Assembly (NCBI GenBank): GCA_001443375.1
Contig: LDXM01000007.1
Location: forward strand, 1-64,000
Source of the DNA: Chloroflexi bacterium CSP1-4
Lineage (GTDB): Bacteria > Chloroflexota > Limnocylindria > Limnocylindrales > CSP1-4
DNA: 64,000 nucleotides
Direction: 5' to 3'
Position 1 is the stretch's first letter. Every line of letters begins with the position of its first letter. The translations under genes and the position numbers were made by a program. Shown here piece after piece: positions 41,407 through 42,182 of this stretch. The notes beneath the pieces were generated by a model. It did no database searches. It was not told where the DNA came from and saw only the letters and a list, made by a program, of their open reading frames with translations.

Positions 41407-41442
41407 ATGCCGCGCCCGACTCGCCCCTCCCTGGTGCCATGA
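41407..41442 (+). CDS. 11-codon leader ORF overlapping rnhB
   Basis: ATG 41407 opens an 11-codon frame, MPRPTRPSLVP, whose TGA (41440-41442) overlaps the rnhB start as ATGA. rnhB has no Shine-Dalgarno sequence of its own, so ribosomes finishing this peptide could reinitiate at rnhB. The peptide has no recognisable function. It is supported only by promoter spacing and the exact overlap. Confidence 0.4.
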   Translation: MPRPTRPSLVP

Positions 41443-42182
41443 TCGTCCCGCGGCTGCGCCCGGAGCGTGCGCTCTGGCAGGCCGGCGTCGTGCGCGTCGC
41501 GGGCGTCGACGAGGTCGGCGTGGCGCCCACCTGCGGACCCGTCGTCGCGGCGGCCGTGATCATGCCCGTGAACTGCCGGCGCATCGCCGGCGTGCGCGAC
41601 TCGAAGACGCTCTCGGCCGCTCAGCGCGAGCGCCTGGACCCGATCATCCGCCGCCGGGCCCTGGCCGTCGGCGTGGGCGCGGCGTCGGTGGTCGAGATCG
41701 ACCGCCTCAACATCTACCACGCCACGCACCTCGCCATGCGGCGGGCGATCGCCCGTCTTGGCGGGCACGACCACGTGCTGGTGGATGGCAACCGCATCGT
41801 CGGCTTCCAGGAGCACGTGGGCCCCTATACCTCGATCGTGGACGGCGACGCGAGCTGCTACTCGATCGCCTGCGCCTCGATCGTGGCCAAGGTCGTGCGT
41901 GACCGGCTCATGCGGCGGCTGGCCGCCCGGTACCCCGGCTATGGCTGGGAGCACAACGCGGGCTATGCCACGGCCGACCATCGCGAGGCCCTCCAGCGCC
42001 TCGGCCCGACGCCCTTCCACCGCCGCAGCTTCGCCCCCGTCCAGGTGGCGCTGAACGGCCTCCAGATGGACCTGCCGCTGGGGGTCGAGGCCGTCGTGGA
42101 TCTCGAGGCGGAGTTCGCCACCGAGCTGGCCGAGCTGATCGAGGAGGCGCGCCTGGCCCCCACGTCGAGCGACGCCGGTTAG
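41439..42182 (+). CDS. rnhB: Ribonuclease HII-like protein lacking the GRG motif
   Basis: Expected to cleave RNA in RNA-DNA hybrids and at misincorporated ribonucleotides. The 247-aa protein has all four catalytic carboxylates in place: Asp and Glu of GVDEVG, Asp in VLVDGNRI and Asp in AKVVRDRLM. RDSKTLSAAQRERL, SIACASIVAKV and NAGYATADHREAL are also family-like. The usual DEAGRGP reads DEVGVAP, so the Gly-Arg-Gly that recognises the ribonucleotide junction is absent. A C-terminal extension (about 200-247) ends in a Glu-rich helix. Activity on single ribonucleotides may be altered. It starts at ATG 41439 and shares its stop region with the convergent MBL gene. Confidence 0.85.
   Translation: MIVPRLRPERALWQAGVVRVAGVDEVGVAPTCGPVVAAAVIMPVNCRRIAGVRDSKTLSAAQRERLDPIIRRRALAVGVGAASVVEIDRLNIYHATHLAMRRAIARLGGHDHVLVDGNRIVGFQEHVGPYTSIVDGDASCYSIACASIVAKVVRDRLMRRLAARYPGYGWEHNAGYATADHREALQRLGPTPFHRRSFAPVQVALNGLQMDLPLGVEAVVDLEAEFATELAELIEEARLAPTSSDAG

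Follow-up and report, generated by a model that had tools for sequence, protein, structure and literature searches.

A bacterial RNase HII without the arginine of the GRG motif: a probable junction-cleaving variant with a predicted sliding-clamp tether

RNase HII takes out ribonucleotides that have strayed into DNA. Reviews describe its GR(K)G motif as highly conserved and credit it with the recognition of single ribonucleotides (PMC9719913). The rnhB gene of Chloroflexi bacterium CSP1-4 encodes a protein that lacks the arginine of this motif, raising the question of whether such an enzyme still cleaves at the ribonucleotide-DNA junction or has changed its specificity. The gene lies in the window, the stretch of 64,000 nucleotides of contig LDXM01000007.1 analysed here. 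Its ORF, at positions 41439-42182 of the forward strand, starts with ATG and codes for a 247-long polypeptide (GVDEVGVAPTCGPVV). The product matches the RNase HII family PF01351 (E 9.7e-39, 133.8 bits for a cut-off of 25.8) and scores 228.4 bits against NCBIfam NF000595 (RNase HII; cut-off 167). Profile comparison likewise gives RNase HII as its best-matching family models.

Directly upstream of rnhB is rplS, coding for ribosomal protein L19 (41030-41377, forward strand; PF01245, E 3e-42). This gene is a conserved neighbour, and the rplS-rnhB order is common to relatives with either form of the motif. On the other side, a gene for a metallo-beta-lactamase-fold protein (PF12706; 42182-43009, reverse strand) is convergent with rnhB, the stops of the two genes adjoining; it was not found next to rnhB among the relatives compared. 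The rnhB frame is unbroken, and a search of the 2.59 Mb assembly (completeness about 92%) gave no other match to PF01351. Neither a second rnhB nor an rnhC was found in this genome, which encodes a single RNase HI whose four catalytic residues are all kept.

The original prediction was that DEVGVAP stands in place of DEAGRGP. The replacement is real, although it spares the first glycine: G27 is kept, the arginine has become V28 and the second glycine A29. In an alignment of 254 homologues and PDB chains, G27-V28-A29 (41517-41525, forward strand) takes the place of Gly-Arg-Gly of Thermotoga maritima RNase HII (residues 21-23), and Gly27 is invariant (255/255 sequences). No other Gly-Arg-Gly was found in the same pocket, where all homologues align gap-free. 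The accompanying statement that all four catalytic carboxylates and the other motifs remain holds. D24 and E25 (41508-41513), D116 (41784-41786) and D137 (41847-41849), all on the forward strand, correspond to T. maritima D18, E19, D107 and D124. The DSK motif at residues 54-56 (41598-41606, forward strand) occupies invariant alignment columns, its lysine being found in all 255 sequences. The junction-sensing tyrosine, Y176 (41964-41966, forward strand), sits in the segment NAGYAT aligned with T. maritima Y163 and is present in 254 of the 255 sequences, with one gap. The equivalents of G21, the carboxylates, K47 and R141 are invariant across the 255 homologues, with or without Arg22. K151 and R154 are also present in the window protein, and two further basic residues are lost, K122 of T. 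maritima, which contacts a phosphate, being replaced by D135 and K161 by A174. The K122 equivalent is also missing from many enzymes that contain Arg22, while the loss of K161 is mostly confined to the clade of the window protein, in which several basic contacts are absent together.

The AlphaFold2 model of the protein has a mean pLDDT of 91.8, rising to 98 for residues 21-30 around the altered loop. It superimposes on E. coli RNase HII chain 7uwe_C with a TM score of 0.93 over that chain. Foldseek gives E values of 3.8e-22 to 7uwe_C and of 1.1e-20 to 3o3g_A, and the model also matches the T. maritima RNase H2-substrate complexes.

The role of the arginine is best documented in T. maritima. 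In the substrate complex, the backbone amides of G21, R22 and G23 and the hydroxyl of Y163 contact the 2'-OH (Rychlik et al. 2010, PMC3025331). The R22 side chain follows the minor groove and stabilises E19 if the -1 position lacks a 2'-OH (PMC3025331). The R22A mutant cleaves most substrates unaffected, with slightly lower activity on a single ribonucleotide and reduced cleavage at the 5' DNA-RNA junction (PMC3025331), a drop that arises because R22 keeps E19 positioned. The harmful changes are G21S, at the site of human G37S, and Y163F (PMC3025331). The window protein has kept the equivalents of G21 and Y163 and has lost what the R22A work, read against its sequence, ranked least important. 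We privilege the hypothesis that it is a working housekeeping RNase HII acting at junctions, and consider it probable that this Arg22-less variant, with its predicted clamp tether (see below), acts on single ribonucleotides and binds the clamp. The enzyme would nick 5' of the ribonucleotide at the RNA-DNA junction. The backbone amides of the G27-V28-A29 loop would still face the 2'-OH, and Y176 would read and distort the junction. The arginine side chain in the minor groove would have been given up for a short hydrophobic residue, with no more than a partial loss of efficiency on single ribonucleotides as the price.

The original prediction went further and proposed that specificity may have shifted. 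The replacement it started from is indeed lineage-wide and under constraint, but the shift itself is weakly supported, since backbone amides make the contacts to the 2'-OH and the effect of R22A is small. In its full form, this explanation has isolated ribonucleotides poorly incised and mainly longer RNA stretches or primer junctions cut, RNase HI or nucleotide excision repair compensating for the deficit. The lowered cleavage by R22A, the joint loss of basic contacts in the window clade and the presence of an RNase HI in the genome speak in its favour. These points are weighed against the invariance of the first glycine and the tyrosine, the absence of K122 from many Arg22-containing enzymes as well, and the fact that the protein is the sole RNase HII of its genome, and that relatives of both types encode an RNase HI. 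We regard such a shift as unlikely; at most, a mild quantitative change is predicted. The R22A mutant by itself may nonetheless understate the effect, because the equivalents of K122 and K161 are absent and Gly23 is an alanine in the natural protein. A link between the loss of Arg22 and the absence of RNase HI was rejected, RNase HI being present with either type of enzyme. No biochemistry on a natural Arg22-less RNase HII was found in the literature searched. An Arg22-less chlamydial enzyme considered as an assayed example was set aside, the arginine being kept in 47/47 other Chlamydiota matches.

A decaying gene whose motif drifted because the enzyme had become dispensable is a further account, and a review notes that deletion of E. 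coli rnhB gives no visible phenotype (PMC11253446). We consider it highly improbable here: the catalytic residues do not vary, a genus-rich family keeps V28-A29-P30 on different codons, the rplS neighbourhood is retained and the frame is intact. An assembly error as the source of VAP was also rejected, since the same motif is encoded by different codons in 24 further genomes of the family.

The change of Arg22 is not special to the window gene; Arg22-less enzymes are an ancient variant spread over several phyla. In the class of the window genome, Arg22 is absent in 39 of the 49 relatives read, with V, M or L in its place, and kept in 10. Counts of the motif pattern in 177 genomes of this class are in agreement. 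Other Chloroflexota families (f22, f42, f55 and f56) also lack it. A scan of GTDB contigs with a pattern that selected for hydrophobic residues at the Arg22 site yielded about 47 true RNase HII (V, M, I or L) among the 119 matches listed. Among the matches listed, these true RNase HII come from Myxococcota, Acidobacteriota, Pseudomonadota, Binatota, Armatimonadota, Latescibacterota and other phyla. Draws made without selection for a hydrophobic residue gave very different frequencies according to the phylum: the arginine is absent (V, M, A or T) in 17 of the 29 best-scoring loci of Myxococcota (centre excluded), in 1/29 best-scoring loci of Pseudomonadota and in 0/47 of Chlamydiota. GRG is not treated here as defining RNase HII, the arginine being absent from those 17/29 Myxococcota loci of PF01351. 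The substitute is nearly always hydrophobic, and several Myxococcota enzymes naturally have the alanine of the laboratory mutant at this site (DEVGAGP). The homologue of Myxococcus eversor (L220) reads DEAGMAP. In most genomes checked, the Arg22-less enzyme is the sole PF01351 match.

On a tree built with the trait columns masked, Arg22 switches about 8 times (bootstrap 7-8; 38.8 expected if shuffled), and at least 3 switches are forced by well-supported branches. The AU test does not reject a single clade for all 62 Arg22-less enzymes (p 0.097). A core of 47 of them, a set chosen after the tree was seen, beats the free search when constrained to one clade (p 0.96). Most Arg22-less enzymes may thus form one old lineage. 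Within one family, the same rplS is followed either by a VAP/MGA rnhB or by a separately clustering RGC type (loci L003-L047). Between the two types, identity is about 45-50% for the rnhB products and about 80-90% for those of rplS, suggesting that rnhB was displaced in place. Two residues covary with the motif. Y93 (41715-41717, forward strand) is seen only with the loss of Arg22 (0/75 Arg-type and 48% of the 62 Arg-less representatives), and position 118, two residues past the third carboxylate, is basic (K or R) in 24% of Arg-type and 68% of Arg-less representatives. In the human enzyme, Val143 takes up the equivalent place, near Arg38. A compensatory role of Y93 and of a basic residue 118, suggested by the alignment, is kept as a lead only because just two supported independent contrasts bear on it.

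The carboxyl terminus raises a separate issue, the predicted clamp tether being independent of the Arg22 question. The original prediction noted a Glu-rich C-terminal extension. There are indeed 49 residues after HRRSF, about one quarter of them D or E beyond the first ten, but the sequence and length of this tail vary freely. Tails of relatives range from 13 to 84 amino acids, and conservation is limited to the first 16-17 residues, whose last positions read Q-x-x-[L/M]-x-L. This segment of the window protein closes with QMDLPL (residues 209-214; 42063-42080, forward strand; tail peptide LNGLQMDLPLGVE), at the start of the low-confidence tail. Beta-clamp-binding motifs are defined as Q-phi-x-[L/M]-[F/L] or Q-phi-x-[L/M]-x-[F/L] (PMC11139829). 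QMDLPL fits the second form, Q-phi-x-[L/M]-x-[F/L], with Met at motif position 2 and Pro at position 5. Among the unique tails of the Arg-less part of the class, 25/47 carry the canonical motif, where shuffling gives 1.5 (maximum 7 in 1000), a test that overstates independence because the tails are related. A relaxed motif occurs in 38/47 of these tails, the glutamine falling at one offset in 33. The forms found at the same spot include QLALF, QLGLF, QLSLF, QLDLDL and QISLDL; the Arg-containing family f4 has QLPLDL there. In the Arg-less enzymes of Myxococcota, Q-x-[DE]-[L/M]-F is found near the C-terminus, the relaxed form being present in 9/17 of them and in 0/12 of the Arg type. Some enzymes of Pseudomonadota, Myxococcota and other Chloroflexota carry a C-terminal motif resembling that of clamp binders: QLSLL, QLALGL, QLSLF or QLGLF (L360, L368, L332, L178, L106 and L187).

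Judged by its sequence, QMDLPL is probably a tether to the beta sliding clamp. It, or its equivalent, would hold the enzymes of the class on the clamp as PCNA holds RNase H2. There is only slightly less than an even chance that the motif instead closes the folded core, or has arisen by chance in an acidic tail: a helix whose end is conserved, with G at offset 8 in 94%, immediately precedes it, and the relatives that carry it share ancestry. However, pentameric and hexameric forms alternate at one place, and the confidence of the model falls exactly there, to a pLDDT of about 51 for the block 211-220, the tails having been trimmed in the alignment used for the model. Such a drop is as expected for a short linear motif. 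The motif is also absent from the small-genome sister family f2, whose tails are short (0/9), and Q-x-[DE]-L-F recurs at the C-termini of Myxococcota enzymes. The tether could extend more widely, to Pseudomonadota, Myxococcota and other Chloroflexota. A review of clamp motifs does not mention RNases in its text (PMC11139829), and no report of a clamp motif in RNase HII was found in the literature searched, mostly outside subscription journals. According to a 2024 review, the RNase HII of E. coli, unlike the eukaryotic enzymes, is not clamp-bound and acts coupled to transcription (PMC11253446).

The window protein shares with bacterial RNase HII of the T. maritima and E. coli type (PF01351; PDB 3o3f, 3o3g, 7uwe) the fold, the DEDD carboxylates, DSK, the first glycine and the junction tyrosine. 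It differs by Arg22 to Val, Gly23 to Ala, K122 to Asp, K161 to Ala and the clamp-like tail motif. The T. maritima R22A mutant (PMC3025331) likewise lacks the Arg22 side chain, but through a single laboratory change, whereas the natural protein differs at other sites near the loop as well. RNase HIII, which has GKG, DEDE and no junction tyrosine, has the type 2 RNase H fold in common with the window protein; the latter has GVA, the tyrosine and DEDD, and no N-terminal substrate-binding domain was seen in it.

In archaea and eukaryotes, RNase H2 is held on PCNA by a tether. Should the prediction hold, the window protein would be a clamp-held type 2 RNase H like the RNase HII of Archaeoglobus fulgidus in complex with PCNA (PDB 3p83) and the eukaryotic RNase H2, with a predicted motif of the bacterial beta-clamp kind (QxxLxL or QLxLF) where those enzymes use a PCNA motif. 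It is a tentative but serious proposal, somewhat short of even odds, that bacterial RNase HII enzymes functioning without the GRG arginine form a large natural class, and that in the Chloroflexota class of the window, and probably in Myxococcota, they are carried by the clamp. Ribonucleotide repair in these bacteria would then be linked to replication, in convergence with PCNA-bound RNase H2 and contrary to the transcription-coupled picture drawn from E. coli. The wide set of natural enzymes without the arginine indicates that the essential part of the GR(K)G statement is the first glycine, together with the tyrosine, and not the arginine.

Planctomycetota and similar genomes encode a divergent RNase HII-like protein of 310-345 amino acids with the motif G(V/I/L/M)DEAGLGP(I/N) (L183:566-1516, L192:171-1124, L235:667-1659, L189:2089-3018, L241:5920-6882 and L291:5027-6061). 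It has ADSKK or GDSKK and PTAGY or PTQGY, and matches PF01351 in pieces only (E 1e-13 to 1e-8). No ordinary RNase HII was found in the five of these genomes that were searched (L183, L189, L192, L235 and L241). The AGLGP proteins may represent an undescribed branch of type 2 RNase H without the GRG arginine. Pattern matches in family f9 were dropped as rnhB candidates: they belong to a second gene, within about 1.5 kb, which has GVDEVG followed by a hydrophobic residue and A but does not code for RNase HII (G217:C3:33318, G225:C24:3473 and G373:C28:7731).
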